64,000 bases of DNA from Owenia fusiformis (Eukaryota > Annelida > Polychaeta > Sabellida > Oweniidae): assembly GCA_903813345.2 (NCBI GenBank), contig CAIIXF020000003.1, positions 10,244,931-10,308,930 of the forward strand, in the 5' to 3' direction. Below, piece by piece: positions 13,222 to 60,000 of the stretch. The translations under genes were made by a program, and so were the position numbers. The notes below the pieces were generated by a model that searched no databases, was not told the DNA's origin, and was given only the letters and a program-made list of their open reading frames with translations. Each line of letters begins with the position of its first letter. Within the stretch, counting starts at the first letter, position 1.

Positions 13222-14454
13222 CTACGAGTGAACAATCCAAATATGAGAAAACAATTAGGGTGATTGTTGTAGAACTATGGTCTGCCAAAGAAAAGTTCTC
13301 GCCTCGTATTACTTGATTCACGGGTAGTATCTAAAGCCCCGCTATGATTTAAAAATCGCGAGCAAGTTCCCGCTGAAATCGCGAGGAATAAAAAGAAGTC
13401 ATGGTTCTTTTTTGTGTTCTTGAATTGTATGATTTACAAAACGTTTTCTTTTAATTTTTCCCAATGATTACATGGTATTGAGACTAAAAAAGCAACTGCT
13501 GGAAAAAATGTATCACGAACGGTCGTCCTGTGGTTCGTTATTTGTCAATTGATGAGAGAAAGTATCATTTTGAATCTTTATCTTTATATTTCTATACGTT
13601 ATTGGTGAAGAACGATGTTGTCCTGTGGTTGAAATAACGATAGTGATATGAAATAAAGATGTACCGAGTTTCGCTTCCTAAAGCTTTACAGAACATTTTA
13701 TATTTAAATTTTATCATATCCCTCAAGGCCCCGCTTCTAGCAGGAGCAATAAAGCAAAGATCCCGCTGAAATCAGGAGGAGGCCCCGCTGAAAACATGAG
13801 GAGGTCCCGCTGAAAACAGGAGCAAGTGTCTCTCAAAAATGGAGTGAATCTCGATTATACCCTGAAAATCTCCCACTTTCGTACCCACCTTGATCCACTA
13901 TTGTAACCAGTTTGATGAATACATTATTTGTCAATACAATTCTCAATAACAGCAAATACAACTGTTAATATAGTTCATATTATGATACGTTGTTATGGAA
14001 AACTGCAGTATCATATTTCCATGCCATTTTACAGAATAAGAAAGATCATCTGAGAAATGTGAGTATTAGATCGGACGAAATGTTAAACATTTAACCTCAT
14101 TTTCATAATTTGAAGTAATATAAGTTATTGAATGATTTGAAGTGCAATGTAGGATACATTGTGCTCAAAAAATTCTGTATTGGCACGAGATGAAATCATT
14201 TGGAAATACAGCATATCGAGAGCACAATATATCATATGTTGCGCTTCAAATCGTTGTATAACGTTTTTTATCGTGTGATCTTACTACATAGTCAATAGGA
14301 AATATTCTGTATTCTCTGTATTGCAACTGTCCCCTCTGTTCCATCTTTGAGTACAAGTCGATATTCAGTAAGATACACGAATAAGCGTGCGTTTAGGTCA
14401 ACATAAAATGATTTAGTCAGAACAATGTTTATGAATATTATTCCGACATCAATC

Positions 14455-16072
14455 TCCTGTTGCTTACTTGCTTGCTCGCTTCCTCCCTTCCTTGCTTCTG
14501 TGCTTCCTTCCTTCCTTGCTTCCTGGCTTCCTTCCTCGCTTCCTCACATCCTTCCTTCGTCGCTTCCTTCCATCCTTGCTTCCTTCCTTCCTCGCTTTCT
14601 TCCTTCTTTGCTTCCTTGCTTCATTCCTTCCTTGCTTCCTCACTTCATTCCTTCGCTTCCTCCCTTCCTTCCTTCCTCACTTCCCTCCTTTCTTTCTTGC
14701 TCCCTTCCTTGCTTCCCTCCTCGCTTCCTTCCTCGCTTCCTTCCTTCCTCCCTTCCTTGCTTCCTCGCATTCTTGCATCCTTCCTTCCTCGCTTCCTTCT
14801 TTCCATCCTTGCTTCCTTCCTTCCTTTCTTGCATCCTCCCTTCCTCGCTTCCTCCCTTCCTTGCTTCCTCACTTCCTTCCTTCCTCGCTTCGTTCCTTCC
14901 TTGCTTCCTCGCTTACTTCCTTCCTCGCATCATTCCTTCCTTGCTTCCTCCTTTCCTTGCTTCCTCCCTTCCTTGCTTCTTTCCCTCCTTGCTTCCTCGC
15001 TTCCTTCCTTCCCGGCTTCCTTCCTTCCTTGCTTCTTTCCTTCCTCGCTTCCTACCTTCCTTTCTTCCTCGCCTCTTCTTTTCTTGCTTCCTTCCTTCTT
15101 TGCTTCCTTCCTTCCTCGGATCTTTCCTTTCTCGCTTGCTTCCCACCTTGCTTCCTTCCTTCCTCGCTTCATTCCTTCCTTGCTTCCTCGCCTCTCTCTT
15201 TCATCGCTTTCTTCCTTCCCTCCTTGCTTCCTCGCTTCCTTCCTTCCTCGCTTTTCTTGCTTCCTTCCTTCCTTGCTTCCTCGCTTCCTTCCGTCCTCGC
15301 ATCTTTCCTTCCTCGCTTCCTTCCTACCTTGCTTCCTTCCTTCCTTGCTTCCTCGCTTCCTTCCTTCCTTCCTCGCTTCCCTCTTTCCTTCGATGCTTTT
15401 TTCCTTCCTCGCTCCCTTTCCTCCTTCTTTGTTTCCTCGCTTTCTTCATAAATTTCTTCCTCACTTCCTTTCCTCCTTCCTTCCTTGCTTCATTCCTTCC
15501 TTCGATGCTTCCTCGCTTGCTTTCTTCCTTGCTTCCTCGCTTCCTTCCTTCCTCGATTCCTTCCTTCCTCACTTCCCTCTTTCATTCCTTGCTTCCTCGC
15601 TTCCTTTTTTCCTCCTTCCTTGCACCCTCGATTCCTTCGTTTTTTCCTCGCGTCCTTCCTTTTTTGCTTCATTCCTTCCTTGCTTCATCGCTTCCTCCCT
15701 CGCTTCCTTCTCTACTCCTTCCTTGCTTCCTCGCTTTCTTCTTTCCTTGCTTCCTCGATTCCTTCCTTCCTCACTTGCATCCTCCCTTCCTTGCTTCCTC
15801 ACTTCCTTCTTTCCTCCTTCCTTGCTTCCTCGTTTCCTTCATTCTTTCCTCGCGTTGTTCTTTTGTCGCTTCATTCCTTCCTTGCTTCCTTCCCTCCTTG
15901 CTTTCTCGCCTTCTTCCTTACTTACTTCCTTCCTTGCTTTTTTCCTTCCTTCCTTTCTTGTGTCTTTGCTTGCTTCCTTCCTTCCTTGATTCATCGTTTC
16001 CTTCCTTCTTTGCTTCCTGGCTTCCTTTCTTCCTCGTTCCCTTCCTTGCTTCCTTCCTTGCTTCCTTCCTTG
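14455..16072. repeat. 1.6-kb CTTCCTTCCTTGCTTCCTCG satellite
   Basis: A nearly pure polypyrimidine tract of imperfect CTTCC, TTGCTTCC and TCGCTTCC units. All three forward frames stay open for hundreds of codons (about 568, 509 and 327) as FLPSLLASFLP repeats. The reverse strand gives GRKEARKEG repeats. This is a compositional effect: no frame is favoured and the strand is almost free of A. Confidence 0.95.
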
Positions 16073-16084
16073 AAGGAAAGATAG

Positions 16085-16490
16085 AAGAAAACAATTTACA
16101 AAAGATCGAACCCACGCACGCAAGAACGTAGTTACAAACGAACGCACGAATGAACGCACGCACGAACGAACACACAAACGAACGCAAAAAGAACGAACAG
16201 ACGAACGCACGCATGAATGGACGGTTGAACGAAAGCACGCACGGACGAACGGACGGTTAGACGGACGAACCCACGAACGAAAGGGCAGTCAGACGAAAGC
16301 AAGCACAAACGGACGGTCAGACGAACGCATGCGCACACAAACGGACGGACAATCGCACGAACGGATGCACGCACGAACGAACGAATGGTCGGATGAACGC
16401 ACGCATGAACGAACGGACCGTCGGACGAACGCACGCACGAACGAACGGTCGGTCGAATGCACGCACGAATGAACGGTCGGACAAAGAGAC
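16085..16490. repeat. ACGAACGCACGA-type satellite
   Basis: Irregular runs of acgaacg, cacgcacg and ggacggtcgg words, directly abutting the polypyrimidine array. Opposite-strand frames such as VRSFVRAFVR are simple-repeat translations. It looks like an expanded tetranucleotide (ACGA/ACGC/ACGG) locus. Confidence 0.9.
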
Positions 16491-17274
16491 CAATGAAATA
16501 TATGTGTCCTCAGAAGTATAATCCTTGGAATAGTTAATTATCTAGAATGTACATTTAACTCCGAAATGCACAAAGTCTATTTACATATAAAAATTTGATC
16601 ATGCCGCTGACAGATGGATTAGACTGCCTGAAGTTGAAGAAGAAATATTTGTGATGTTGCCATAGAATGATATATTATGTGACTGTCATTAATACGTTAT
16701 TTGCACATTCGTGTACGTTCATATAAAGAAGCTCACTATATTCATGGAATAATGATGAAGCTTTCCTCGTGATCGAAGCGGGTAGTCGTGAAATTTGCTC
16801 GTGTTTTCAGCGGGGTCTCCTCATGTTTTCAGCGGGGCCTCCTCATTTTTTCAGCGGGGCCACTGGAACACCTTTAATCATGTATTTCGACCCCCATGGC
16901 AGGTGTCATTGTCCAGTAACTTATCAATACAGACCATCTTGATCCGATATTTATTATGGAGTATGTAAATCGTATTTATTGCCTTTATTTTAACGATAAA
17001 GGTAATATATGAGCAGTAAATTATGCAAACGTGCATGTTGACGCCCCTTTCCTTCATGCAAGTAAAAAATAATCATTTTTCATGTCATTTTTTGTCAAAT
17101 ATATCTGTTTTCAAAGTTTTGCTGGAGTATCAAAGAACGGTAATAAGTATTTTCATCCTTTTGGTTCATTTTCCAAAGTGATACAAATAAACAGGACTAT
17201 GCTCGCGATTTCAGCGGGAACTTGCTCGCGACTTTTCAATCATAACGGGGCTTTAGATACTACCCGTGTTGATT

Positions 17275-20659: not shown

Positions 20660-23600
20660 ATAATTTTTTCATTTTATTTACATCGGGACAATTTATAAAT
20701 GTTATTCATGGTAATTATATCAAATGAAAAGTACCCAAACATGCAATAGCTCAATGTGTTAACGTGAATGCTATTGATAATGACATGTTAAACCTATCTG
20801 ACCACCTCCCGATTAAATTAACCGTTTGTCCAAAGCAAGAGGTCTTTTTCAAAAAAAAACTGTTAAAAAGAATGAAACAGAACGAGTCTCGTGGAAAAAA
20901 TCATCCTTAGAACATTTAAATGATTATTCCAATGAAGTTCATCGCTTAGTAGAAGAGCGCCTTATGCCTGTGCTAGCTAGATCGAGTGAGTTACGTGATA
21001 AAAGGTTTATCGACGACTGTTTTAATCTGCTAACTTCGATATTTCACGAGGCAGCAAATAAAACTCTCCCTAAAACCAAATACTGTAAACATTTAAAACC
21101 GTACTGGAATCAATCATTGAAAGCTATAGTAATTCAAAAGAAATCCACGTGGAATCGATGGATTATGCATGGAAAACCGCGCTCTCCGGGAAATGTTCAC
21201 TGGGATACATATAAGGATGCAAAAAGATGTTTTAGGCGGGAATTGTGAAAATGTGAGCAAAACTATGAAATCCGATGTCAGAAGGAGATTGACGAGCTAG
21301 AAGAAATATCTTTAAACCAATTCTGGCATCTGGTTAAAAAATGGAAGCCACGATCAGCTCCGAATATTGCAATCAAAACAGATGATGGAGTTATATTGAC
21401 TGATGATAACGACGTCACAAATGAATGGAGATCTTATTTTATGAAATTGGTGTCTGCTCATGGAAGTGATCAAGATGACTATGAAAATATGTTTTTTCAA
21501 AATGTTAATAATGATATCGCCAGAATGGAGCATGAAAGCTTTCTAAACAATGATCTAGCATTCGAACAACCTGTTTCTGTAGCAGAAATTGAAAAGGTTA
21601 TTTCCAAGCTTTCAAAAAATAAAGCCCCTGGTTTGGACCAAATATGCTCAGAACATTTAAACAAAGGAGGTACAATCGTTTTAAACGTACTTGTAGAATT
21701 ATTTAATTGTATAATATCTTTGGAACATATCCCTGATAATTTCAAATTGGGTGTCTTGATTCCGTTATTCAAAGGCGGTGTAAAAGATCCCCTAAATAAG
21801 GATCACCACAGGGGCATCACACTGATGACGTCATACATGAAAATAATGGAACGGTTAATGATGATAAGAAGTGAACAATGCAATTGTCTTGAACCCAAGT
21901 CTGAAATGCAAGGTGTTGGTCTTCCAAAATGCTCAAGCATTCACACGTCACTTCTAGCCAGAGAGGCTATATCCCATGGACTTGAGTTAGGCAATGACGT
22001 CATCGTGACGTCACTAGATATTAAAAAAGCCTTCGATAGTGTGTGTTACTATATAAATTATACAATCAAGGTATTAATGGCAAGTTATGGAGGTAAATCA
22101 AATTATCCTATAATCGCTACAGATGTACAATTAAGGCTTCTCCAAACTGCCCCATGTCTGAACCTTTTGTTGTTGAAAAGGGGGTCCACCAGGGCGGAAT
22201 TTATTCTATGGAATTGTATGCCAGATTTACAAATGATTAACTAAATGAAATACAAAAATGTAACATTGGTAGCACTATATGTTGTATTAACTCAACAAGC
22301 CCCATATTTGCAGATGATACTGTCTTAATTGCATATCATGCCAAATCAATGCAGCAACTATTGGATAAGGTGTATCGATACAGTGTTAAATGGAGATTCC
22401 AATATCACCCAGACAAATGCCAAACAGTCGTTTTTAGTTATCAAAGGGATCCGCCTAAACCCCACTTACTACTCGGGGGGAAACAGTTACAGGTAGTTGA
22501 TTCAATGCAGTATGTAGGATTACACCTTACACCAAAATCATATTTAAGCTATGTAGACAATGCCGTCTCTAAAGGAAGGCGTACTATGAATGCCTATATT
22601 GGTGTGACATCATCGATCATCAACCCCACGAACCCCTTAACTGCCTCAAGATTGTACTGGTCGATATGTATGCCATCTCTAACATATGGCCTGGAACTAA
22701 TTTCTGTGAACGAGCAAGCATTGAGTAAACTGGAAGGAGGGCATAGAGAAATTGCTAAAAAGAAACTGGTCATAGTAAGATTAACCTTTGCAACGCACTA
22801 TAACCTTCATAAACTGTCCCCAATTGGAGATTGTCTTAAGATAGCTAGATCTTTTGGACTTCTGGGTGATGTATATAAAATGCTTAATGTTGGAACTATT
22901 CCAAAATTGCAATGGAAAAGACGTGTGAAAAATGTTGTGTATGAACGGGAATTAAGCAATTGGAGAGTACAGTGTATTTTGTTTGAAAAATTGTCTTTAT
23001 TCAGAATGGTTCAAAAAGAGATAAATCCCCTTGTATGGTGGACCCTAGCAAAATGTAATCCCATGCTACTTAAACCATGTAGAACCATGGTTAAATTATT
23101 AACGGGTGAAGGAAACCTAATGGTTAACTGTAAACGGTGGTCGGGTGGCAAGATAAATGATCTATGCTTGGTATGTGGCGAAGCTATTGAGAATTTAGTT
23201 CATATGGTACTAGAATGTCCGGGGCATAAGGCAAAACGAAAAGATATTGAGAATATTCTTATTCAGATGTACCTTGATACCCCTCTCCCACCGAATGACG
23301 TGTTATTACCGATTTTATTTGGCGAAAATAATGTACTGACAGAGGATCAATATATTAAGATAGCTCTGTCAATTTATGGAATGTATGAGGCAAGACCAAA
23401 TGTAGATTTTTGATTAGTTAACCATAATTTTTAATGAGATTTGGTTTGATAAATGATAGTTGGACAATATCATATTGTAGCTAAAGGGTAATAGGTAAAG
23501 TGTAGGTTAACTGACGGCGTCAACGCGGTAGCCTGACGTCCGTCAACGGCAAATATTAGGTGGAGAACTTGTTTTCTTATTGCATGTAACAGATAGTAGT

Positions 23601-24565: not shown

Positions 24566-26915
24566 TTAGATTATTTTAGTTGTCTTTAGATATGTCATTA
24601 ATAAATGTCTCATATCTCTGTTTTGTGTTTCATTTAGTGCTTTATGAAAGCCTGTCAAAATCTTTAAGTCAATATTTGGCTTGGGTCCTTCAATCCCTAG
24701 TAATTTTACTTCAGCCTTATGGAGCATTAGTTCCCGTTCAGCGTAGAACTTCTTACAATCGAAAATGTAGTGTTGAACTGTCTCTGCACATTTGCAGTGC
24801 TCACATTGGTTTGAAATGTCGGTCTGTATCTTAGACAAATGATTGTTTAGCTTGGAGTGTCCAGTAATCAGTTGATTTATCTTACAAAAGTAAGACCGAT
24901 TTTGTTCATTCAGATTATTTTGGACTCCTACAGTTTCAATAATTTCTTGTATGTGTTTGACTTTTGTCGAGTTATCATATAGAGTCTGCCACTTGTTCAG
25001 GGCAGTTTTCTTAATAGATCTATAAACTTCCTCTTTGCTTTGTTTAACAGAGGATTGGGGCAGTGTCGCTGCTTCCGCTGCTGCTTCCTTGGCATATGTA
25101 TCGGCTAATTCATTGCCGTGAATTCCTAAGTGGCTTGGGACCCAGTAGTAGGTTAAAACATTGCCGCCCTCGCTCAATCTGTAAACCAGAAACCTGGAAT
25201 TTTCAATGCATTTAATTTCAGACCTTGGTTTATTGCTACTGAAAGTGCTAAGAAGGGCTGGTTGACAGTCACCAAAGATGTGAATATCGTGGTTGTTAAT
25301 AGATATAGAGATATTTCCCCACAAAAATTATTGCTTCTGACACTGATTGCTTTTTTCAAGCAAACAGGGTCAGACTTGGTCCCGGCAAGAAATATAATCG
25401 CGCTTGACCCTGTTGGTCCTGGATTTGATAGAGTGGACCCGTCAGTGAATACAATCACAGATTTATTGCTCAGATTGTTGATTTTATCTTTGATGATTTT
25501 ACACTGCTCAGCTTTACTCACCCCTATTGTTTTGCTACAGGTACCTTCGAAAATGTTAAGCTGGTAGGGTGGAAATTCTAGACTTGTTTTGTATTCTTTT
25601 TCGACTTCTGCATTCTTGCCTGTGCTGTTAAACTCTCTTATTCTTGAGTTTAAAATGCTGAAAGTTGATGGTTTTCTTTCTATATAGGTTTGATTACTCT
25701 TTTCCAATTGTTGAATGTTTTTGCGAGTGGGTCATTATCATTTTTACATAGAACTCTAGTGAATTCTTGACTTTGTCGTGTTCTGATATGTATGTCCATA
25801 GGTTGGCAATTAGTTATGACGTCAAGAGCATCTGAACTTGTGTACATACATCCTGATGCCTTTATCAAGGCTAGTCTTTGTACTTTCTGAAATTGTTGTG
25901 TGGCTTCTTTATGAACGCAAGCTAGAAGTGCACATCCATATAAGTATACGAAAGCAGATTGTGTGCAACCAGAGCTTACACTTGTGAAGTCAGAAATTCT
26001 TTTAAGTGCTGTGAAGCCCTTCTTTGTTCTGTCTTCAATATGTAGATCAAAATCTAATTTGTCGTCAATTATTATTCCAAGCACTTTAGTAGATTTGACG
26101 ATGTTAATTTCCCCTTTTTCCAGTTTAATGGAAGAAGGTACTGCTGTCTGAATTCTAGGTGGAGAAAATACAAGTGCTTTGGTTTTGCTTGGTGCAAAAC
26201 TCATATTCCATTTGGTACACCATGTTTGTATGGTTGCTAGGTCTTCTTGAATTGACTTAATTGCTATGTCCAGATCCTTGTTGCTGGTCCATATGATAAT
26301 ATCATCTGCGTATTCTCCGTAGCTTGCCTTTATGTTGGTGAGGGCGTCTGCAGTGTACGTGTTACAGAGCTGCGGGCTAATTACGGCCCCCTGAGGGATA
26401 CCAATGGAGGACTTTCTAAGAGGAGTTGTATATTTGTTAACAGTGATTGAGTACTGCCTCTTCAAAAGGTATTCTGCTATGTAGCATAGAGTTCTACTCC
26501 TGAGTCCTTTGTTGATAAGTTTGTATAGCAGCCCCTCTCTCCAGATCCTTTCGAAACAAGACTCGTAATCTATAGTGATCGCAACAGTGTGTTGGTTCTC
26601 ATTCCATCCTTGTTGGACCTCCTGTGTAAATCTTAGAATTATTTGTTGGCAGCTGTGTTGTTCTAAGTACGCTTCCTGAAAAGGAGACAACAAATCTAAT
26701 TTAAGTGCAATCCAGGAGTATCTATATGCTATAATTTTTTCGTAGAGCTTTCCTAAAATAGATTCAAGGGTTATTGGTCTATAGGAAGTTGACTTGTTGT
26801 ATGTTGGTTTACTGGGCTTGGGGATCATATGTTTTGGATCTATGGTATATTCAATTGGTATTTCCGCTGATTTCCAGATTTTTTGGTACAATATTAAAAG
26901 GGCATCTATAATTAC
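24566..26915 (-). pseudogene. Non-LTR retrotransposon RT and RNase H (3' part)
   Basis: Reading leftwards from 26915: the RT block with 'YRPITLESILGKLYEKII', motif A 'VAITIDYESCFERIW', 'IGIPQGAVISPQLCN', and catalytic YADDIIIW. The frame ends at about 25680. An overlapping frame gives RNase H: VIVFTDGSTLSNPGPTGSSA (first Asp), 'IFGDCQPALL', then VPSHLGIHGNELADTYAKEA (His/Asp). A C-terminal cysteine/His segment, CEHCKCAETVQHYIFDC, follows. A frameshift near 25310 separates the two RNase H halves, so it is dead. Having RNase H places it with I/Outcast/R1/LOA-like groups rather than CR1/RTE. The upstream part resumes at 28758-29118 after an insertion. Confidence 0.9.
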
Positions 26916-29413: not shown

Positions 29414-32400
29414 ATGGCTATTCTGACTACAACACGACTTCCGAACTATGCAAAGGCTTTTGCGGTGTGCATAGTTTTGATCATGTGTTTGATGTTCGTA
29501 TACTTCAGAGGGTTACTAGCAGAACAAGAATCGAAGGTACGTTAGTATAGTCCATTCAAATGTTTTATTTTCGACAATAAAACCTAAAAAGGGATCAAAA
29601 TACCACAGTGCTGTAAAATAAGGAAAATATATGAGCCTGGCCATAGGAAACCCGGTCTTATCACAAAAATTAGAATTGTGCTACAGAGCCAAAAATGTGC
29701 CCAAGATTAAGAGGAAAATGTGCTCAATTCAAAACCGGCATGGCTCATATTGATATTGCACACGAAATTAATGACGTTCGTATATTTTAGATTAGTTAAT
29801 TGTATGTCCAATAAACCCGAGGCCTCTTGTAATTTAGAGAGTTTCAGCAAAATAATATGTACTTTTGATTAACTTTAAAGACATGTTAAGGACAGGGTGC
29901 ATGTTGGGAAATTTTCTGCATTCCTCAATTGAGTCACATGTTATTTTTCAAACAAGAATAACTCCTTCCCCACATTGTCTACATCTTCCAAGTTTGCACA
30001 AAGAGTGCACTTATGTGCCTAGAAAAGCCTTGTGAGAAGGTTTGCTTTGTAAAATGTATAAAAATGAGAAAATTCAGTGAAAAAAAATTCTGAAAATTTC
30101 AGTGTGCAAGTTTAGCATTGTTTTCCCATTGATCATTTGAGTTCTCATGTCAATAAATGGAAATAAAAATGATAGAGTAGTTTATTTTATTGTAAAAATC
30201 AAAAATAAAACAGGGTTTGGTCAGGAAGGGAACAGGTGAAATCCTTGGGATATATGAATTAATTAATTTTAAGTTAGAAACATATTCATGTTTCTACAAT
30301 TTAGGGTAACCCTGTGTATTATTCTACTGTGCATGGTTATACCCGTGCAAAATATTACAAAATGTTATTTACTTATTATAATAATGCAATGTGACAATAT
30401 CAGTTTTATCTTCAAATTTGTATATAATACTTTGCCTGTAAGGTTGGGCAAGCCATCTATTACGTTGATAGTATAAGATGTTGATTTTGCAAAGCAGTAC
30501 CAGTATATGTACAGTAACATATATGTAAGGGAAAAAAATGTAGTCCAGTATGTAGTAAAGAAAGGAGTATTTTGGTCAACTCAATACATGATCTGATAAA
30601 CACTACATAAAGTGTTTTCTATGCAATGATTATATACAGGCTGCTTATTCATTGTTACTGCGAATTTCAAAAGCTTCCAAATTGTGTGGAATAGAGCATG
30701 CAATGTTTTTCAGTTTCAAGCAGGTTTTAGTACATGCTGACCAATTGTATTTTCAGACTTATTCATTTCATGATTATGTAATACAGACCTACTTATCTGC
30801 TTAACATGTCTTTAACGCTACCTGAAAGAATTCCAGCTATGTTTATCCATGGGCTTTCAAGAAATCTCTTGAGCTCATGGTTAATCGTATTGAAAATACC
30901 GGGTGAAAATAATATAGAGAAGCATCCAAATATAAGATGCCACACACTGTATTAGCTAAACTAAAAGCAATCCAAGATAAACAAATGTCATTTATGTACA
31001 ATAGGAATATATATTTTCCATTTATTATTGGACAGTGATCTTTTGATTTCTTAGTTTTTAGGTTTTACTGACGCAAAAAAACAATGAAATGGGCTGTACA
31101 GCTCTGTTGTCTTATGACTTATGATTCTTTATTTTTAGGTTTAGGGGCGCGGGGTAGTTATCAGAAAATTACACCAAATAGGATTTGAAAAAATATGTGG
31201 ATTTTAACCTTCAATCAGTTTTACTACTCCCATATATTATTTACATGAGCAGGACCACAATGGTCATGGTCAAAATGACCCTTTACCATGCTGAAATAAC
31301 CTTTTCAGCCCTCTGAAATAGTGACTGAAAAAGTTGAAAGTTTCATTTTATAAAGCATTTCCGAAAGGTCACTGGAAAGAATATTTTGAAATGCTGATTC
31401 AACGTGCAAAAATTGGTGAAAATGTTTAAATTCTCCCCTATAATAAGAATGGTAACCATTCTTATCGAAAAATAATACATTATTGTAAAAATCTTTAGTT
31501 TTCCTGAAATAAAGTGTGCACTTTGGGGATTTTTGGAAAATAAACATGAAAAGGAATGACATAAGCCAAAAATATTATAAAAATTAAACATTTTATTTTG
31601 TTAGGCTGCTCGCTAGATCTGATTCTATCTTTAAGAAAACAACATATTGAATGGACTTTGCAATAGATCAATGAATAATAGAATTTGTTATCGTGAAACA
31701 CAATTTTGACATTATGGACAACTTAAAAACCAAAATAAAAAATATTAGATTAGTATTTAGGAAACATTTGTCAAACGTAATGATATACCTTAAGAAAAAA
31801 TATAGGAGTTTGTAAATTGTTGCCTTTAAATTTATTATAGGTCAAAACGAGAGATCAACAATTTGAACAAGAAAACATTAAGGTTAAATCTGTGGACAAA
31901 GAAGTATGGCTGCCACAGACAACTTTAGAATTACTTGGAAAACTTACCCATTTGAAAGACGTTTATAATTACACAGATGCTGATGTGAAGCACATTACTG
32001 AAACACTTAAATTTGCAGTAGATGAGATGTCTGGTTTTATGAGAAAATCTGGAAGACCATATTTTCAACATTGTGTAGGTAGGTCACTAAGTGTAGCAAT
32101 CTTTTGGGATATTCATTGGATGTACCAATGCCATCTAAAATTACATTATTTTGTAGATTTGAATAGGGTTTTCAGTTCAGGTATATAACTCACCGATTTC
32201 TTCGATTTCAATCTTTATAAAGTTTCATATATAACGTTTTGACACCACGTTGACTTATAGTGTACTCTTACCTAATATTACCAAAGTGTGAAATGTGAAA
32301 CATTTTTTAATTTCAAAAAAGTGATTTTGAAGAACTTTTAGTTCGAAAAATTGTAAATTTATTTTAGTCCACCTTTAAAAGGCCACTAAGTTTGAAAAAC

Positions 32401-35400
32401 TTTTTGATTTGCTAAAGCATTGAAGTGGCACATTATATTATGACATAATACTATTGTAAGTGTGTGTCCTTTGTTCAGCCTTTGCATTGGTGTTAAAAAA
32501 TAAAATATTTTTTAACTGTATAGTAGGATATTTGATGATTACAAAATTCTTTTTTTTAAAATGGCGAGAAATTTAAATAATTGAGAAATGAAAAGCTGAC
32601 AACTTTTTTCGAATTTTTTTTTAAAATCTCTAAAAAACTTTTCAAATCATGACAAATTTAAAAGTAAATGAATGATGAAACCATTCTTTCAAACTTAACA
32701 TCGGTACCAAGAATCCACAAAAATCATGGAGATTCTGGTTAAATAATGTACTACTCTTTTAACTAATTCAAGCTGACTTTTTTGCCCTGGGAGGTCACCT
32801 TTTGAAAAAATCCAGGGAAGGGTCACTTTGAAAATTATAACCAAAAATCAATTGATAGTGCTCATATGGTGCTAATGTATCTTGGTTTATATCATTTGGT
32901 TTATTAAAGGTATGGCTGGCTGTTTACTTGATATCGGAGCACCACTTGATCATGCGCTGTCGGGTCTTCTTCACTCCATTTATGTATTATGTATGTGCTG
33001 TCATTGGTTTATTTAAGGTATGGCAGGTTGTTTGCTTGATATTGGAGCACCGCTTGATCATGCGCTGTCATGTCTTCCCCACTCCATTTATGTATTATGT
33101 ATGTGCTGTCATTGGTTAATTTAAGGCATGGCAGGTTGTTTACTTGATATTGGAGCACCGCTTAATCATGCGCTGTCAGGTCTTCTCCACTCCATTTATG
33201 TATTATGTATGTGCTGTCATTGGTTTATTAAAGGTATGGCAGGTTGTTTACTTGATATTGGAGCACCGCTTGATCATGCGCTGTCAGGTCTTCTCCACTC
33301 CATTTATGTATTATGTATGTGCTGTCATTGGTTTATTAAAGGTATGGCAGGTTGTTTACTTGATATTGGAGCACCGCTTAATCATGCGCTATCAGGTCTT
33401 CTTCACTCCATTTATGTATTATGTATGTGCTGTCATTGGTTTATTTAAGGTATGGCACGTTGTTTACTTGATATTGGAGCACCGCTTAATCATGCGCTAT
33501 CAGGTCTTCTTCACTCCATTTATGTATTATGTATGTGCTGTCATTGGTTTATTTAAGGTATGGCAGGTTGTTTACTTGATATTGGAGCACCGCTTAATCA
33601 TGCGCTATCAGGTCTTCTTCACTCCATTTATGTATTATGAATGTGCTGTCATTGGTTTATTTAAGGTATGGCAGGTTGTTTTCTTGATATTGGAGCACCG
33701 CTTGATCATGCGCTGTCATGTCTTCTCCACTCCATTTATGTATTATGTAAGTGCTGTCATTGGTTTATTTAAGGTATGGCAGGTTGTTTACTTGATATTG
33801 GAGCACCGCTCAATCATGCACTTTCAGGTCTTCTCCACTCCATTTATGTATTATGTATGTGCTGTCATTGGTTTATTTAAGGCATGGCAGGCTGTTTACT
33901 TGATATTGGAGTACCGCTTGATCATGCGCTGTCATGTCTTCTCCACTCCATTTATGTATAATGTATGTGCTGTCATTGGTTTATTTAAGGTATGGCAGGT
34001 TGTTTACTTGATATTGGAGCACCGCTTGATCATGCGCTGTCAGGTCTTCTCCACTCCATTTATGTATTTGGTGCACAGGCACAGGTCAGTACATCCCCCG
34101 CCATCATTCTGATATTTTATTGTTTAGAAATTGATGATTCCAAAAGGACTTTCAGTTGCAAAACTTTTTAAACTACATTTCTGCCATTTTTATATGGCAA
34201 AAAACCTAGGCGTTTTTCAATAACGTAACAGTTGTTATTCAAATAGCATTGTATAAACTGTGCGTTTGTTCACAAACAGGGTGGGCCACAAACGTACATC
34301 TTTTCATCATAAAAAGGGTTATAACAAAATAAAATATGTAGAATGTTTATGGCCCATCTCATTTATGCAGACGCAACTAAACATCATCAAACTATCGTAT
34401 AAACTTTCAAATATCATGATATAATGTTTAAAACTCAATCATTTTAAATTGATTAAGTTTTAAACATTTCATGATATGATGTTATCATTACTCTTCAGGC
34501 TGTTACAAATGCTGATGACGTTTGTGTATTACGCAAAAAAGTTATAGAAGTCGTTGGTCTTGAAACGGAATACTATGTATGGGGCTACACTGTCTATCCG
34601 CGAGGAAATCTCGATGACAGCGCTGTGCAGATTGCAAGAGAAGCTTTAGATAAAGGACTATATGAAACTACAAAAATGGGTCCAAAATTGAAAGATGCTG
34701 TGTTGGGTCATTTCTGTAATGAGCTCGACGAATTCCACCAACTTGATCAAGTGTAAGTTTTTATTCGAGAATGGAAGTCATGCCACAACTTTGACAAAAT
34801 AAAATCATTGCATCAAATGAAATTATGTCTTCAATGGAATGTAGAACTATTGGACCTATTATAGATGTCTCTTAAACATTTGTCCAATAAAAATCAAAGC
34901 CGGCTATATTGTCTTGTGGAAGTTATAGTTAGGTAAACTTAGTAAATCTATAGGATGTACATAAAGTGTATTTGCAAACACAATGTGAAGGTTGTAGGTA
35001 GTGTGACCGTCATTTTTAATATGCTTAAGCGAATCTAATTATTACGACGCAATGGGTGCACAAACAATGCGTTTTCATCATGATATAGTGAATCAAATAC
35101 ACATTAAAGGGAGGATCAGATTAAGCAAGTAAGCCGAACAAAAATCATTTTACTTTTCCAATACTTACTACTTGGGGCCATTTCAATACTACTAGTATCT
35201 CCCCCATCTGTGCACTCTGAATCCGTATTAACCTCGGCAAGTTATAACATATCAACTCTCAAACCCAGTTGAACAATTCACAGTATATACATGAATAAAC
35301 CATAATTTCAAGGTATGCATTGCAGCTCTTTACTCCATATAATATATCATTACATATTGAATCTATTTTTACAGGTACTCGGGGAATCGCAAACGAAGTC

Positions 35401-35729
35401 CAGCTTTTAGGGAAAATGCTACGCATATCTTAAACAAATTAGGCTACCCCGATCTTGCAGATAAACTACTTACCTTGTATTCGAAACAAGATCAAATAGA
35501 CATTCCTAATACAGAAACTGATAAACAGCATACGAAGACAGTTAGGGAGTTTTCACAACATTTACACCAAGCGTTTGGTTCAGATCCAAAATATGGTGCC
35601 AGACCAAGAAAGTTTCATAGAATTTTGAATTTTGACAAAGTTGCTGTACATGAGGTTATGGAGAACTTTGATAAGCATTATGCAGAGGTGGAGAACTTGT
35701 GTCCAGATATACCTCTGTATAAACCTTAA
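29414..35729 (+). CDS. Gene A: signal-anchored protein of unknown function (HD/DUF6817-like core?)
   Basis: Five exons read by eye: 29414-29536, 31841-32078, 33990-34084, 34499-34752 and 35375-35729 (354 residues), with phases 0, 1, 0, 2. Exon 1 gives a short N-terminus and one hydrophobic helix (AFAVCIVLIMCLMFVYF), a probable type II signal anchor. Exon 2 contains 'WLPQTTLELLGKLTHLKDVY' and ends 'RPYFQHC'. Exon 3 reads GMAGCLLDIGAPLDHALSGL then 'LHSIYVFGAQAQ'. Exon 4 has 'VLRKKVIEVVGLETEYYVWG'; exon 5 is polar and ends 'LCPDIPLYKP'. The His-x(n)-GAP-x(n)-GLLHSIY pattern recalls DUF6817/HD-superfamily proteins; this is a hypothesis and the enzymatic role is unknown. Gene B matches it exon by exon. 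The intron before exon 3 is packed with ten extra copies of exon 3's beginning. All donors and acceptors are GT/AG. Confidence 0.8.
31561..31700 (-). mobile_element. Short retrotransposon 3'-end fragment in intron 1 of gene A
   Basis: The words 'ttgttaggctgctcgc-agatctgat' recur at 50480-50510, where they are the end of a CR1/L2-like ORF on the same strand. Here only the last residues (DRIRSSEQPNKI) survive. It is a small solo fragment. Confidence 0.55.
32909..33989 (+). repeat. Ten extra tandem copies of the exon 3 start, 108-bp unit
   Basis: Units start near 32909, 33016, 33125, 33233, 33341, 33449, 33557, 33665, 33773 and 33881. The eleventh, at 33990, is the true exon 3. Each unit carries an acceptor-like tttatt(t)aag, about 80 bp of exon 3 (GMAGCLLDIGAPLDHALSGL and 'LHSIYV'), then about 27 bp of intron-like sequence. 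Only the last has the VFGAQAQ end and its donor. Because 108 is divisible by three, long frames run through the array. In most units the exon frame meets a TAA; in units with 'ttattaaagg' it stays open across the junction. Confidence 0.95.
34409..34483. repeat. Hairpin-forming inverted repeat in intron 3 of gene A
   Basis: The arms 'atatcatgatataatgttta' and its near-inverse (about 34460-34483) flank a short AT loop just before the exon 4 acceptor. It could form a stem of about 30 bp close to the splice site. Confidence 0.6.
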
Positions 35730-37116
35730 CTAGTGTGAAGCCCAGTGGCTAGTAGATGGCTAATTAGTGACATAATAATGTATTGGGGAAAGTTGATTGG
35801 CGTTATGCATGCCGAGGTAGAGACCATGTGTCGAGATATACAAAATTGTACCTCTGTATCACGGGATGTCATCGCCTGATTTGGTCAATGTTAGGGAGCA
35901 GGTCGTTTTTACAATAAATTTCAATATTTTCACACAAAATATTTTTTTACTGAAAAACTGCTCATTCGCAGAGAAAATGTACTAGCACATGCAATGACAA
36001 TGTCAATCACGCTTCTGTACGAAATTCGGCGGAAGTCTTTTATAATCTAATACGAAGTTACTAAAAAAGGCGCGAACGCCCTACACTCAAAATGATCGTT
36101 TTTCCATTATAACTTTTTAACGTAATTTAACGAAGGCTTCTAATTATTATCCAAGATAGTCTAAATACCGATTAAAATATTTCTTACTTCAAACAGATAC
36201 GCCGTCTTTTATTCAATTTTTTAAAAAATAATAAAAAATAACTCTTGTCAATGTTAGGGAGCAGTCAATGTTAGGGAGCAAAATGATTTTATCAGAATAT
36301 TAAAAATGTAGCAAATGGCCATTTAAAATATGTATGGCATTTATAAACTAAACAATATTGTTTGAATGATTATTTTAAACCCCTTGCCTTAACAAAATTT
36401 AACAAAATCGATAAAAAAAATTGTTTTGCATTTTTGTTATCTTCAGAAAATGGACTCTCAAAGATTTTTGACGAAGGAAAGTTAATTATTATCATGGATA
36501 ATCTCAGTACATATTGAAATATTTCTTACTTCAAACAGGTACACCTTTCTTTAATTTTTTTTAAATAATAAAAAATAAGTATGATCAATGTGGCGGAGCA
36601 AACAATGCAGTGGGGCGAAATGGTTTTATCAGAATATCAGAGTAATTGGCCTTTACAAACATGTATGTCATTTATAAACTAGACAAGATTGTATGATTGT
36701 TTTATACCCCTTGGTATAAACCTTACAAGCATACAGTATTGCTCAGCACAATATACACAATTTAACCAGATACAATAATTACATGACATCTCCCTTTATT
36801 CATGATATTGTATTTAAATAAATGAGCTCATCTTTGTATATAAATTATTGTTTTGAAATAGACCGGTAACACTTAAAGAAAGTCTAAAACTTTGTCCAAT
36901 CATATTTTAGAAATGTTAGAATAATAAAACATTTTGGGACTTCACACATTTTCAACCCAAATATAGACATAAATTGAGCTGATTGTCTTTCAAGTATAGC
37001 TCAGCAAGCAGCACAAAAATTGAATATTAGGAAAAAATACCGTCACTTCTCTTGAACAACTAAAAATTCTTTCCAAAGTGTTATTTTTTCACCAATTACT
37101 AATTTGCAAATTAATC

Positions 37117-38240: not shown

Positions 38241-40367
38241 TTAGAGTATCATTAGCAAGTGGTACACATATAACAGAGATCGGTTATATACTGCATTGTC
38301 TGAGTATTGACAAATTGAAGTATACGTGTAAAAATCTACTATCATACATGTAACTGCGCAATGAGCCCTTCATAGCGTTTGTGCCAGCTATCAGGTGATA
38401 CCCGGTCGTAAAGATAAGTGCGAGACTAACTCTCTTACTTTAATACTAGGAAAATATCAAATCATAGAACTGAAGGATGTCGGAGATTTCTCAAGCCTAT
38501 ATATCAGTTCAGATAATTTATCATCCACAATTTAGGATTGTGAACTGATGACATCATCAAAAAGTGTATATAACGATACATCCATTCATTTACAGTTAGA
38601 GGTCAACGAATAAAGAAGGAATGGTTCGCATCTAAATATTTCTAAAACGAACGTAAACAGGATTTAGCTGAAAATAAAAAATGCAAAATAACCTTTTCAA
38701 TGATTTTCTTACAATTTTAACGCTTTCCTCCCCAAAGGGTATCAAATAATCATACAAACAAAATTGTTCAGTTTATAAATGCCATACATATTTTAAATGG
38801 CCATTTGCTACATTTTTAATATTCTGATAAAATCATTTTGCTCCCTAACATTGACTGCTCCCTAACATTGACAAGAGTTATTTTTTATTATTTTTTAAAA
38901 AATTGAATAAAAGACGGCGTATCTGTTTGAAGTAAGAAATATTTTAATCGGTATTTAGACTATCTTGGATAATAATTAGAAGCCTTCGTTAAATTACGTT
39001 AAAAAGTTATAATGGAAAAACGATCATTTTGAGTGTAGGGCGTTCGCGCCTTTTTTAGTAACTTCGTATTAGATTATAAAAGACTTCCGCCGAATTTAGT
39101 ACAGAAGCGTGATTGACATTGTCATTGCATGTGCTAGTACATTTTCTCTGCGAATGAGCAGTTTTTCAGTAAAAAAATATTTTGTGTGAAAATATTGAAA
39201 TTTATTGTAAAAACGACCTGCTCCCTAACATTGACCAAATCAGGCGATGACATCCCGTGTGTATACGCCTAAAGTATGAAGCCCAGAGGCAAGAATGAGG
39301 CTTATTAATAGCATTTCGTAAGAAAATAATGACGCATGTCGTTTAGTAATTACAATCACATTTTACGTTCATTGAATAAATACTCGTACTCGTATTATAT
39401 ATTGATAAAAAATATTGCATATTAACTTTCCCAATATGATACACATAATTCGTGTTTCGAATCTTTAGCAAATGACTCACTAATAGCATAATTATTTGGT
39501 ATTCCCGTATAACGTATACCTTTTGAAGCGTTTGCTCACGTCTTCATTATTTGCACAGCTGAATACGTCCACAAGTGTGATATTCTTAAGTATAGACGAC
39601 AATTTATAATAATATCACACTTATGGCTAAAGAGCTGAGCAATAAATGATGACGTCATCAAACGCTTCATAAGTTACACGTTATACGGGGAAAATAAACA
39701 TTCTATAATCTTTAATCTATGGCGCCTATAACTCTGTTAAGCGTGTGAAAATCTAATCATAGAGTATTTATACGCTCATCGAAATTTAATCACATCACGT
39801 TATTTAAATGGCTTACGTTGAGCTAGGAAGTTTTTGCAATATGTACAAGGGGATAAATACGTATATTTATTTCACTGCGTTATACAATATATATTCATCT
39901 TTACTATGTGTTGGTTTTAGTTTCTTACTCAACGTAAAGTTCTCATCCACTGCACGTAAACACATGGTTTAGTTGTTTCGTTTTTATTTTCCTACTTTAC
40001 ATAAAGGTTATATACACTTTATCTAAAAACGTATGGTTTAGTTGATCCGTTAAGGTTTTTGCGCGCTAGGCATAGTTCCCCAGACTTTTAGCAGAATTTG
40101 CATTCCATACTATTGTCAACATAGAAACGGTTTATATGTATCAATGTGTCCTATTTAAACGGTTGTTGTTTCGACGAGCCTCTCGTCCTCGGGGGTAGAA
40201 ACATGGTGTGTTTATTGATAAAAATGTTAGAGGTGACAGAGTTTCTTTTCTGTAAGTGTCTTGCTGACTTAATTATGACATGAAACTGGGAAGGTGGTAA
40301 ATTTCATGTAAAACTAACTAATACTGAAAGTAAGACCTACACTCTACAGTAGAAAACGTGACCTATA

Positions 40368-42866: not shown

Positions 42867-44176
42867 TGTCCCCACCACATAGTGTGGGGCCATATTGTCG
42901 GCCTAGGCGCGTCCGTCTGTCCGTCTGTCCGTCTGTCTGTCCGTACGTCCGGCAGTTTTCTCCAAAACCGCTACAGATATCACCTTCAAATTTTCAGGGA
43001 TAACTTATGAGTGCATACAGATGTGGATGAAAAAAAATTAACTCGATACCTACTTCCTGTCGGCCATTTTGAAGTCAAATGCTAAAATCCTTGTCTGCAA
43101 ACTTTAAGAAAAACTGCTTCACAGTTGCTTTTAAAACTTTAACATCTTGTTCAGCTCACTTCATTCTAGATCTGATTAGGTTTTGGACCTGCTAGCTCAG
43201 TCATGTCAGCCATTTTGAATGTCTTAAGAAAAGTTAGCGCGCGATAATACTTTGTATCATATTGAATGGTGTTTTTGAGTTTTCATACTTTAACTATTTA
43301 GTAGCTTTATAAATAATTTCAGATGTACTTTGCTGTAAAAGCCTACTTTATTGTTAACAGTAGTTATATGTGATAATTTTGTAAAAAGAAATCAGCAAAA
43401 ACTCATAAGGACTTTTTTATTGTCGGCCATTTTGGATTTTTCGGTCCTAAAATCTTGTCTGTGAAGTCTTGTCTGCGCGTTTTCAGGTGAACCGTTTGGT
43501 GGATCAATTTCAAATTTTCAGGGATGATTGTTAGTATAAAAATCTAGATCTCATTAGTTTTTTGGCATTCTGGGTAAATGTCAAGGCAGCCATTTTGGAT
43601 TTTCCGTCCTAAAATCTTGTCTGTAAAGTCTTGTCTACTCGTTTTCAGGTGAACCGTTTCGTAGATCAATTTCAAATTTTCAGGAATGATTCTTAGTATG
43701 AAAATCTAGAACTGATTAGTTTTTTTGCATTCTGGGTAAATGTCAAGGCAGCCATTTTGGATTTTCCGTCTTAAAATCTTGCCTGTAAAGTCTTGTCTAT
43801 GCGTTTTTAGGAGAACGGTTTGATAGATCAATTTCATATTTTCAGGGATGATTCTTAGTATGAAAATCTACAAACAGATTAGTTTTTTGACATTCTGGGT
43901 AAATGTCAAGGCAGCCATTTTGGATTTTCCATCCTGAAATCTTGTCTGTAAAGTCTTGTTTACATGTTTTCTGGTTAACTGTGTGACGGATCAATTTCAA
44001 ATTTTCAGGGGTGGTTCTTAGTATGAAAATCTAGAACTGACTAAATTTTTGGCATTCTGGGTAAATTTTAAGGTGGCCACTTTGGATTTTCCGTCCTCAA
44101 ATTGTGTTGGTAAAGTCTTGTCTACTCATTTTCAGGATAACCATTTCACGGGATCACCACTTGGTGGGGACATTTT
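42867..44176. repeat. Dispersed GTCCCCACCA...GGTGGGGAC repeat with ~161-bp tandem core
   Basis: It starts with 'atgtccccaccacatagtgt' and ends with 'accacttggtggggacattt', which form short inverted ends. A (CCGTCTGT)n tract lies at 42906-42945. From about 43430 to 44100 there are five tandem units of about 161 bp, each with 'gccattttggattttccgtc', 'aaatcttgtctgtaaagtct' and 'aaattttcagg'. It appears to be a non-autonomous repeat family and encodes nothing recognisable. Confidence 0.8.
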
Positions 44177-51479: not shown

Positions 51480-52400
51480 AATAAAAAATGAGACACCAAC
51501 AATCTGACCAAGACCACATTAAGGTTAAATCTGTTGACAGAGATGTATGGCTGCCACAGACAACTCTAGAATTACTTGGAAAACTTACGCATTTGAAACG
51601 TTTATCATTACATGATATCATTTATGAGAAAATCGTGAAGACCATATTTCGAACATTGTGTGGGTAGTTCGATGTAATGTCTGGTTTTATGAGAAAATTG
51701 GGAAGACAATATTTCGAACATTGTGTGGGTAGTTCGATGTAATGTCTGGTTTTATGAGAAAATTGGGAAGACAATATTTCGAACATTGTGTGGGTAGTTC
51801 GATGTAATGTCTGGTTTTATGAGAAAATTGGGAAGACAATATTTCGAACATTGTGTGGGTAGTTCGATGTAATGTCTGGTTTTATGAGAAAATTGGGAAG
51901 ACAATATTTCGAACATTGTGTGGGTAGTTCGATGTAATGTCTGGTTTTATGAGAAAATTGGGAAGACAATATTTCGAACATTGTGTGGGTAGTTCGATGT
52001 AATGTCTGGTTTTATGAGAAAATTGGGAAGACAATATTTCGAACATTGTGTGGGTAGGTTGATGTAATGTCTGGTTTTATGAGAAAATTGGGAAGACAGT
52101 ATTTTCATTATGTGGTAATCTAATTTAAATGCTATCAATCCTTCGACATATTCACTGAATACCATCTGAATATCATTTGGAAAGATTATATTGTTTTAAA
52201 AATCGGTAACCTAACTAATATTTCTGATGACGTTGCAGATGACGTTTGTACATTAGAAGTTATAGAAGCTGTCGACTCGGATGGATTACTGCGTATGCCT
52301 ATTAGTATAAAAATATATATCGGGCTACACGTCAGTCTGTTCGCCGGACATTTTTGATGACAGCTCTACTATATGCAGATTGCATCCCCGGTTATTTGCC
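51480..52400 (+). pseudogene. Degenerate third copy of the gene A/B family
   Basis: 51515-51600 matches exon 2 of A and B (VWLPQTTLELLGKLTHLK) but then frameshifts. The end of exon 2 with its donor is repeated about eight times (51630-52100). About 52238-52400 matches exon 4 in damaged form ('gcagatgacgtttgta', 'gaagttatagaagctgt', 'gggctacac', 'gatgacagctct', 'atgcagattgca'). Exons 1, 3 and 5 were not found. The two exon remnants are almost adjacent, so most intron DNA is lost. Confidence 0.82.
51630..52100 (+). repeat. ~64-bp tandem array of the exon 2 end plus donor
   Basis: Seven to eight nearly identical units of 'gatgtaatgtctggttttat', 'gagaaaattgggaagacaat' and 'atttcgaacattgtgtgggtag'. 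They derive from 'MSGFMRKSGRPYFQHCVG' and the GTAGGT donor. The units are more uniform than the flanking pseudogene sequence, which indicates recent expansion or homogenisation. Confidence 0.92.
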
Positions 52401-57021: not shown

Positions 57022-60000
57022 ATGGCTATTTTGACAAAACGAACTCCGAAGTATGCGAAGGCTATTGTAGTGTTCACAGTTTTGATCCTTTGTTTGATGT
57101 ACGTATACTCTAGAGGGCTACAGACAGAACAAGACTCTCAGGTAGTACAGCAATAAATAGTTGATAAAAGAGGTTTCGCACAACGGGTTAAAGCTGAACG
57201 TATCTGCAACCGCATGTTGTTTGGATTAAGCATAAATTTGGTGATTGCGTCACGGATTTTAGTTAATTAATGAAAACACAGAATGAAATCCTTAGCTACC
57301 GTTGCGCGAAACCTATCTAATATCTTTCATAATGCATTTTACTGAATTAGGAACCCTATACCAGGGATTAAAGAAAGAATGATCATACATACCTTCATAA
57401 CAATATAATTTAAACGCATAGCAAACATTTGCTTGATTCGATTTTTAAAACAAAAATAATGTCAACACAATCTACACGAATCATGTAATGTGCTTACGTT
57501 GTTAAATTCAAAGGAGTGGTATCGATATGGTGAACAATTTGAACACGCGTTTCTCTTTAAACCAGTCATAAAAATCTAAAAATTTAACACATCGTCAATT
57601 TAATGGTCATATTGTTTTAGAAAACACATCAAACACTTGTTTTGTTCTTGGTATCATGTTTCCAGAGTGAAATGAAACATCTTTCCGAAAAAAGTATCTT
57701 GTTAATGAAATAAAAGGTTTATCTTGATTTTTATCTATTCTGGGGAGAGGTTGTTTTAATTTTTTGAATACTTTTATAAAATCAACCAAAAAATCCTTTG
57801 TATAACTATAATATTGAGAGGTCAAAAAACATGTTGTATATTATGCTATTTTGTTCCAACAAGGTTCGAAAAGACATTTCATTTCATTCTCAAGAATTGG
57901 TAGAAAAGAGCAAAAACGATTGCACTAAAAAATGTTAACAAAAAACAGTTATGTAAAATATTTATTGTATATTATATATTAAATTGTTATCAATCAGTCA
58001 ACATTGCATAAAATACCGTATATTTTACAGAGTGTTTTTAATGATTGGTTTAAGAGAAAAACATTGTTGAATTCAGTTCACCATATCGATACATATCCTT
58101 TGCAAATAACACGGAGAGTACATGCATGTCACCCCTTTATACATAATGTATATCAAAAGATTATGTTCGGGAATTTTAGATCACATTTAACTCTATTTGA
58201 AGATTCTTTAAGAATGTTGGGAAAATGTATAGGAGTTTTATAGAATTAATCTAAAGAATTTTTTAGAATAACATTTTGTCATATGACTAGCCAAGATATA
58301 GCCATCTTTACCCCATGCAAAATATTGCCATGTTTCTTCGCTTTGATAATGTTTCTTTATCTCGTCTGCAACTCGATAAAGAAGAATTATCAAAAAGCTC
58401 ATCAAGAATGGAATATCTTGCACAGGTACTCATATAAGAACCTTTATATATTTTAATGCATTTTTATTTAGTTATGTGTTGGACAAATTGCTGCATTTGT
58501 ATTATAGGTCAAAGCGAGAGCCAGAGAATATATTAAGTTTAAATCTGTTGATAAAGATGTATGGCTGCCACAGACAACTCTTGAATTACTCGGAAAACTT
58601 ACGCATTTGAAAGACGTTTATCATTACACAGATGCTGATGTGAAGCACATTACTAAAACACTTAAATTCGCAGTAGATGAGATGTCTGGTTTTATGAGAA
58701 AATCGGGAAGACCATATTTTCAACATTGTGTGGGTAGGTTACATTTAAGGCTAACAGTCCTTTGGGATATTCATTGAAATATATCAACACCATCAACAAT
58801 TATGTTTTTCGTGAAGCTTTTTACTTAAGATTTTCTTGTAAAAGAGCCTTAGACGCAAGTATCGATTTTTTTTCTTAGTCTCTAATCATTTACTAGATTA
58901 GTATTTCAAATTCGTCTTTTCAAATAATTTATTGTATATTGAACTAAAAGGCCTTTCATTTTATTTTAAGGTTAAATTTTAATCATACAAATTATTTCAA
59001 TGGCAAAGTTGCTTGAATTCTTTTGGACAAAATAACTTTTGAAAAAAGTTATCAGTATTTTGCCATTTTAGCAACAATAAATCAATTTAAGATTTTGAAG
59101 GGTAGCACTTTTTAATTTGCATTGAATCTTGGACAATTTTGGACCAAAATCACTTAAAAAGTGCCTAAAGTTGTGAAAAGCTGTTGAAAGACTTTTGGTC
59201 ATGGTTCTCAGTGGCTATGGGCCTGCTTACACCAATAATATCTTGATTTGCTGTCATTGGTTTATTTAAGGCATGGCAGGTTGTTTACTTGATATTGGAG
59301 CACCACTTGATCATGCGCTGTCGGGTCTTCTTAAAGACTTTTGCTCATGGTTCTCCTTGGCTATGGGCCTGCTTACATCAATATTATCTTGATTTGCTGT
59401 CATTGGTTTATTTAAGGCATGGCAGGTTGTTTGCTTGATATTGGAGCACCGATTGATCATGCGCTGTCAGGTCTTCTTCACTCCATTTATGTATTATGTA
59501 TGTGCTGTCATTGGTTTATTAAAGGCATGGCAGGCTGTTTACTTGATATTGGAGCACCACTTGATCATGCGCTGTCAGGTCTTCTCCACTCCATTTATGT
59601 ATTTGGTGCACAGGCACAGGTTAGTACACCCCCGCGATAAGTTTGGTAATCGGAAAATGTCATTCCAACGCAGGTTGCCAAATTAATTATTGAACGGGAC
59701 AATATCTTTTCCATTCAATCGAGGTTTGGCCATGCAGCCGAAGGTAAGCCATACAACCGAATTTTGCCGATTCAATCTGACAGAGAATACCGAGCCTCTC
59801 TTTTTGACCAATTAGAGACGTCTTCTTCACATTCGTGGTACCCTCGGCCAACTCCGTTTGCAAAGAAAATTTTCGGCAATCTCCGACTTTTCTTGAGGTA
59901 TCTTCAGTTGCAAGCCAAAAGTCGACACCCAATATTGAACATATCTGCAAGAATACGTTTTCACAATCCATTTATTAGTGTTCATTGTCACAGACTTCAT

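Follow-up and report, generated by a model that had tools for sequence, protein, structure and literature searches.

The tandem array in intron 2 of gene A

The window analyzed here, a stretch of 64,000 nucleotides of contig CAIIXF020000003.1, contains a five-exon gene, gene A, whose second intron ends in a tandem array of 108-bp units made of intron end and exon start. The spliced model of gene A encodes 354 aa and has no internal stop. A paralog in the same window, gene C, served for comparison, and two distant paralogs are referred to as L001 and L002. The features of gene A are the following; the donor scores in the list come from the two matrices described further below.

29414..29536, + strand: exon 1, from the spliced model, inspection and comparison with gene C
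31841..32078, + strand: exon 2, ending GTAG/gtaggt (the slash marks the splice point), phase 1
32909..33988, + strand: ten 108-bp units, each with one base from the very end of the intron, then 79 nt matching the start of exon 3, then 28 nt of the intron-end type
33747..33752, + strand: GTAAGT in unit 8, the strongest cassette-type donor of the array (TAT/GTAAGT, 7.47 with the human matrix and 9.68 with the 15-intron matrix)
33990..34084, + strand: true exon 3, which is unit 11, with its own end VFGAQAQ, the donor CAG/GTCAGT and a single-copy counterpart in L001 and L002
34499..34752, + strand: exon 4, from the spliced model
35375..35729, + strand: exon 5 with the stop, from the spliced model

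Tandem Repeats Finder places the array at 32896-34068, with a period of 108, 10.9 copies, 94% matches and 0% indels, and the 11 unit starts are spaced exactly 108 apart. The repeat unit lies across an exon-intron boundary, as it consists of the end of intron 2 and the start of exon 3; of the 1,911 nt of the intron, the last 1,081 comprise ten whole 108-bp units and the closing intron base. This agrees with the initial annotation, which had described ten copies of intron end and exon start ahead of the true exon 3 and an acceptor kept in every unit: AAG precedes the exon start in 11/11 units, so that the AG is retained in all of them. What it had stated about the content of each unit was correct in part. 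The exact 20-residue core GMAGCLLDIGAPLDHALSGL, said to lie in frame in each unit, is found only in units 1, 4 and 11 and is altered in the remaining 8/11, by D>N (units 3, 5, 6, 7, and 9), by G>C (units 2, 8, and 10) and by G>R, L>F and A>V once each. Similarly, the candidate donor GTATGT, 81 nt into the unit, is present in 8/10 upstream units, while unit 7 reads GAATGT, with no GT, and unit 8 reads GTAAGT. Unit 10 has an in-frame TAA within its would-be 81-nt exon. The proposed overlap of the units with the motif that defines the core holds for part of that core.

The products of genes A and C match DUF6817 (PF20680) above the Pfam gathering cut-off (28.3 and 30 bits, respectively, vs 25.2), and the HD_4 match of the gene A product is below its Pfam cut-off. 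When RelA/SpoT-type chains were compared with the whole gene A protein, the best E was 0.0056; with the core piece, E ranged from 0.21 to 0.78. Two of these alignments place YFQHC of exon 2 opposite YFSHP or YITHP and GLLHS of exon 3 opposite GLLHD. The His-Asp dyad of the RelA/SpoT-type HD domain was not found in gene A, which has GLLHS where both aligned chains have GLLHD, and exon 3 probably encodes a portion of an HD-like core in which Ser replaces Asp. A literature search for DUF6817 found nothing, and a genome search with PF20680 returned a single weak match that contains a stop (E 2.18); as the known intron-split loci were missed too, the latter search is uninformative on other DUF6817 loci. 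The product of exon 1 begins with a hydrophobic N-terminal stretch, anchor-like by eye. A 322-aa ORF (33144-34112) crosses the array in the +1 frame of the units and stays open owing to the unit length of 108, a multiple of 3. The match of this ORF to AAA_lid_2 of Pfam (E 2.8e-10, 40.2 bits, cut-off 22.7) was discarded as a repeat artefact, since no stretch passes alone and the best one has 19 residues.

Paralogous loci and the minisatellite background

A search with the exon-2 protein retrieved five loci (A, B, C, L001, and L002) in 12 matches, eight of which fall in B, a degraded paralog in the window. At the DNA level, all 16 matches in the genome lie within A, C and the two distant paralogs. 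The paralogous features of the window are:

57022-57141, 58508-58733, 59525-59619, 61349-61602 and 62864-63224, + strand: exons of gene C, intact, 351 aa, stop at 63224
59187..59603, + strand: three exon-3 starts in tandem in gene C, from a 146-bp duplication plus a 108-bp duplication
51621..52104, + strand: array of 65 bp x 7.4 over the exon-2 end and donor of paralog B, from the tandem-repeat call and the exon-2 match

L001 and L002 are genes located 17 Mb from the window; both have a single exon 3 beginning with GTATGG, and the array at the intron 2/exon 3 boundary is absent in both. In gene C, the copies of the 146-bp tandem duplication are 94% identical, the junction of the 108-bp duplication is identical to that of gene A, and the units start with GCATGG in 3/3. 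Between A and C, dS is ~0.32 overall and 0.09 in exon 3 (2 of 23 sites); the lower exon-3 value, which comes from few sites, hints at exchange between the two genes. Splicing to the acceptor of the second copy in gene C (59416-59619) would produce a 203-nt exon 3 that stays open, without a stop, and repeats 36 residues of the core in frame; the upstream acceptors of gene A differ in this. Paralog B (51486-52300) has an exon 2 with a stop and a deletion, no exon-3 match and an exon 4 remnant recognized by eye. Other repeats are present in these paralogs. L001 (598-2396, 41 copies) and L002 (1465-2256, ~18 copies) each carry a 44-bp minisatellite ahead of exon 2, probably within intron 1, and intron 4 of gene C has an inverted pair of 16-bp minisatellites (61816-61988 and 62231-62310), perhaps the ends of a mobile element.

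We then estimated how common such arrays are, using 16 stretches of 10 kb from six contigs of the 498-Mb assembly and counting arrays with a period of at least 30 and at least 3 copies. The sampled 160 kb contained 13 arrays, which cover 7.9% of the bases, and 6/16 stretches had none. By the same rule the window has three arrays, a fourth (43426-44136, 162 bp x 4.4) being removed by the overlap rule. An enrichment of arrays at the boundaries of this gene family was considered and rejected: ~3.2 are expected (~40 boundaries in the five loci x 8%, a rough figure) and three loci (A, B, and C) were observed, with no excess. Nothing special about gene A is needed.

The GC content of the 16 sampled stretches is 30-36%. 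A locus elsewhere in the genome (G000:C6:23756600-23757500) encodes an FMRFamide precursor in which KRFMRFG occurs 16 times, followed by KK (11), KR (4) or KS (1); a pattern search of the genome gave five clustered matches and its reversed control 0. Precursors of this kind are a mark of spiralians, and this one, with the low GC, argues for a spiralian host.

A probable neutral minisatellite and its alternatives

The array appears to be a neutral "mirage" minisatellite in intron 2 of a DUF6817/HD-like gene, most likely spliced around, a reading to which we assign a probability of about 0.8. Its boundary-spanning structure, its absence from the two distant paralogs, the lack of clear coding constraint and the commonness of such arrays in this genome are all observed. 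A 108-bp segment across the intron 2/exon 3 boundary would have been tandemly duplicated before or around the A/C split, or exchanged between A and C. In gene A, amplification with partial homogenization, presumably by unequal exchange or gene conversion, would then have led to ten extra copies. The array would leave with intron 2 when splicing connects exon 2 to the acceptor at 33990, the one with the exon-3 donor 95 nt downstream. By analogy with known mirages, the copy number of the array is likely to vary.

The differences among the units are consistent with such a history. Units 4 and 11 are identical over 62 bp, as are units 5 and 7, which is suggestive of units partly homogenized. Unit 1 differs from units 2-10 by a mean of 7.9% vs 5.2% among units 2-10 themselves; it shows four differences to C1 and C3 of gene C, five to A4 and A11 and eight to C2. 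Unit 11, at the opposite boundary, is the same as unit 4. Concerted evolution that leaves out the boundary units is at most suggested by these differences. Private variants (n = 12) comprise five synonymous and seven non-synonymous changes vs ~28% synonymous expected (p 0.24), while the seven variants that share their base with the units of gene C or with exon 3 of L001 or L002 are all synonymous. With gene C as the sole reference, the synonymous to non-synonymous counts are 6 to 0 for shared and 6 to 7 for private variants (p 0.13). Furthermore, variable sites of units 1-10 number 17/81 in the exon-like part vs 4/27 in the spacer (Fisher p 0.58). With variants common to the paralogous exons set apart, coding constraint on the units is unsupported.

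Several points weigh against neutrality or against the history proposed. Counting all core variants over the first 81 bases (n = 19), synonymous changes exceed expectation (12 to 7; with kappa 2, p 0.002), and they still do without the variants seen only in unit 1 (8 to 7, p 0.04). We attribute this excess to descent from functional exons, or to exchange with them; one of the seven shared variants, however, matches L001/L002 only, in a different codon, and is maybe a coincidence. The private variants are about as expected without coding constraint, but their set is small, so that weak constraint, or constraint on one or two units, may exist. The junction is common to A and C despite a dS of ~0.32, so the first 108-bp duplication either predates the A/C split or was exchanged. 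Both the splicing around the array and the instability of its copy number are inferred, not observed, and the size of the array could be wrong through assembly. An assembly artefact that has produced a false copy number, or a false array, seems highly improbable. Long near-identical arrays are easily mis-sized, as is generally known, but units 2-10 differ by 0.9-8.3% and carry private variants, gene C has the 108-bp junction as well, and the window contains no N.

Splice-site strength bears on the alternatives. We scored donors with a human matrix from the literature and with a matrix of 15 introns of this gene family, which includes the sites of genes A and C and was shrunk towards the human one; scores are given in that order. 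The sequence AAG/GTATGG, an acceptor and a donor-like site at one point, occurs in 9/11 units, the juxtaposition being a sequence match only. Its donor scores 8.28 and 9.14, the true exon-3 donor 8.60 and 6.36 (leave-one-out), and the common cassette donor TAT/GTATGT 4.49 and 7.58. When all the GTs of the ten upstream units were scored, the unit start was the best by both matrices in 7/10 (1, 2, 4-7, and 9); in unit 8 the rank of the start vs the 81-nt donor changes with the matrix, and units 3 and 10 start with GC, hence the 81-nt site is their best. The cassette donor is thus weaker than the unit's own start, or absent, in 7/10 upstream units. The unit acceptors score 5.0-9.9, bracketing the true acceptor (7.2).

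The dual sites raise the possibility, unlikely in our judgment, of a recursive-splicing or ratchet array. Entry at AAG/GTATGG would regenerate TAG/GTATGG at the exon-2 junction, from which splicing would proceed onward, the units being peeled stepwise as zero-length exons. The frequency of AAG/GTATGG (9/11 units) and the rank of the unit start as the best GT by both matrices (7/10 upstream units) speak for it, and the regenerated site (6.82 and 8.40) outscores the common cassette donor although it stays below the donor of unit 8. At ratchet points of Drosophila, competition between donors is reported to have a strong effect on inclusion, acting on the skipping of the following cryptic exon (PMC8605326), and the units of human UBC are delimited by AGGT sites usable as donor or acceptor (PMC10809524). 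However, the dual site needs no function because it comes from the coding sequence that opens exon 3, where GTATGG is also found in L001 and L002. Moreover, units 3 and 10 (GC) lack a start donor and the ranking in unit 8 depends on the matrix, the gene C units read GCATGG in 3/3, and removal of the 1.9-kb intron in one step suffices. The Drosophila report also describes exonic signals that can override donor competition, and not every reporter there was predicted by donor strength alone (PMC8605326). A related idea, a shade more doubtful, is that the array erases itself, most copied acceptors being potential ratchet points such that mis-entry would be undone by recursive splicing. If true, this would explain harmless growth to eleven copies in an apparently live gene, and it would predict unit 8 (GTAAGT) as the likeliest leak into mRNA, as a 27-codon insert.

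Upstream acceptors could otherwise serve as poison or sink sites, entry into an upstream unit leading to a stop and to nonsense-mediated decay that lowers the output of gene A. Read-through from an upstream acceptor to the exon-3 donor does meet an early stop in 10/10 cases, after 146-227 residues, and these acceptors score around the true site; but there is no sign of selection for such a role, and the amphioxus mirages are reported not to disturb regular splicing (PMC3087553 and PMC3902484). We regard a poison role as quite improbable.

Variable inclusion of the units as 81-nt in-frame exons that repeat a segment of the HD-like core, the idea of the initial annotation, is mechanically possible, as it had stated. 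The symmetric 27-codon exon that it saw in each unit is feasible in frame for 8/10 units (1-6, 8, and 9), with a product of 381 residues in all; unit 7 has no donor and unit 10 has a stop. Its estimate of introns of about 135 bp or more was also right, the minimum being 135 nt from the unit 9 donor to the acceptor at 33990. A role for such inclusion, on the other hand, found no support and seems very improbable to us. Unit 8 does have a good donor (GTAAGT), and in a two-copy boundary duplication of potato a cryptic exonic GTAAG is reported to have been used, which gave a new intron (PMC4974935). Against this, private variants, at 5 synonymous to 7 non-synonymous in small numbers, show no clear constraint, variability is as high in the exon-like part as in the spacer, donors other than that of unit 8 are weaker or lost, similar arrays are common in the genome, and amphioxus mirages are reported to be regularly spliced. 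Two adjacent units can never both be used because only 27 nt lie between them, and a second copy of the core segment would probably disturb the fold. Constrained copies with donors of their own, as in a cluster of mutually exclusive or cassette exons, were not found among the units. Single units may still be included, since the start of units 3 and 10 offers no donor to compete and the cassette donor of unit 8 is good; for protein diversity the array probably matters little.

Comparison with known arrays and other features of the window

Mirage minisatellites are a known kind of array. In amphioxus (PMC3087553 and PMC3902484), they are reported in Adh3, the globins BflGb6 and BflGb9, PGBD5 and troponin C, with units of 10-72 bp (Adh3), 150-160 bp (globins), and 60 and 108 bp (PGBD5). 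They lie at both 5' and 3' boundaries, and AG/GT signals are kept in many, not all, units. The globin units show concerted evolution from which the boundary units are excluded, two haplotypes have six and three units, and RT-PCR together with the Adh3 data suggests regular splicing despite the mirages. The gene A array shares with them the boundary-spanning unit and the splice signals (AG in 11/11 units and the unit-start GT in 9/11). It differs in having ten extra units with AAG/GTATGG in 9/11, in being known here from the DNA of one assembled copy, and in its host, which appears to be spiralian and not a cephalochordate, although host range is no structural criterion. The case thus appears to lie outside cephalochordates. 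A literature search for mirage minisatellites, with subscription journals mostly outside its reach, found the name used for amphioxus only.

Duplications of boundaries or of AGGT units exist under other names in potato and in human UBC and VCX3A. Like the gene A array, UBC has units in tandem whose length is a multiple of 3, each bounded by an AGGT usable as donor or acceptor; its units, in contrast, are coding and variably retained in mRNA, seen as an RT-PCR ladder (PMC10809524), whereas those of gene A are intronic, lack clear constraint and in most cases finish with a stop (TAA in 8/10). In the potato RdRp gene, intron end and exon start were likewise duplicated, with a GT inside the copied exonic part, but there are two copies and a new intron with RNA-seq reads (PMC4974935), vs 11 copies in gene A known from DNA alone. 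The ratchet points and RS-exons of Drosophila resemble the gene A units in having an acceptor directly before a donor and a second donor downstream; the Drosophila sites are conserved and lie in long introns (PMC8605326), whereas those of gene A are repeated, in a 1.9-kb intron. If the array is a mirage, it adds an apparently spiralian case with three paralogous copies affected at two different boundaries in one 64-kb window. It would also be a natural test of how the spliceosome chooses among eleven near-identical acceptors, and of whether dual sites, acceptor and donor-like at once, make such growth harmless.

Other features of the window are listed as side observations. Upstream of gene A there are retroelement pieces on both strands, at 25680-26891 (-), 24566-25324 (-) and 21396-23413 (+), with a reverse transcriptase match on the minus strand (E 2.3e-30) and weaker matches to RNase H, RVT_1 and zf-RVT. 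AIG1-family GTPase domains were found in two reading frames, 5661-6431 (-) and 9858-11258 (-), with E 1.5e-24 and 7e-38. The region 13762-16861 has a 1.6-kb TTCC-rich and a 0.35-kb ACGA-rich array between 22-bp repeats, partly inverted copies of each other. Finally, a 17-bp tandem pair at 36247-36280 has its reverse complement at 38839-38872, 2.6 kb apart, as if the two flanked an insertion.
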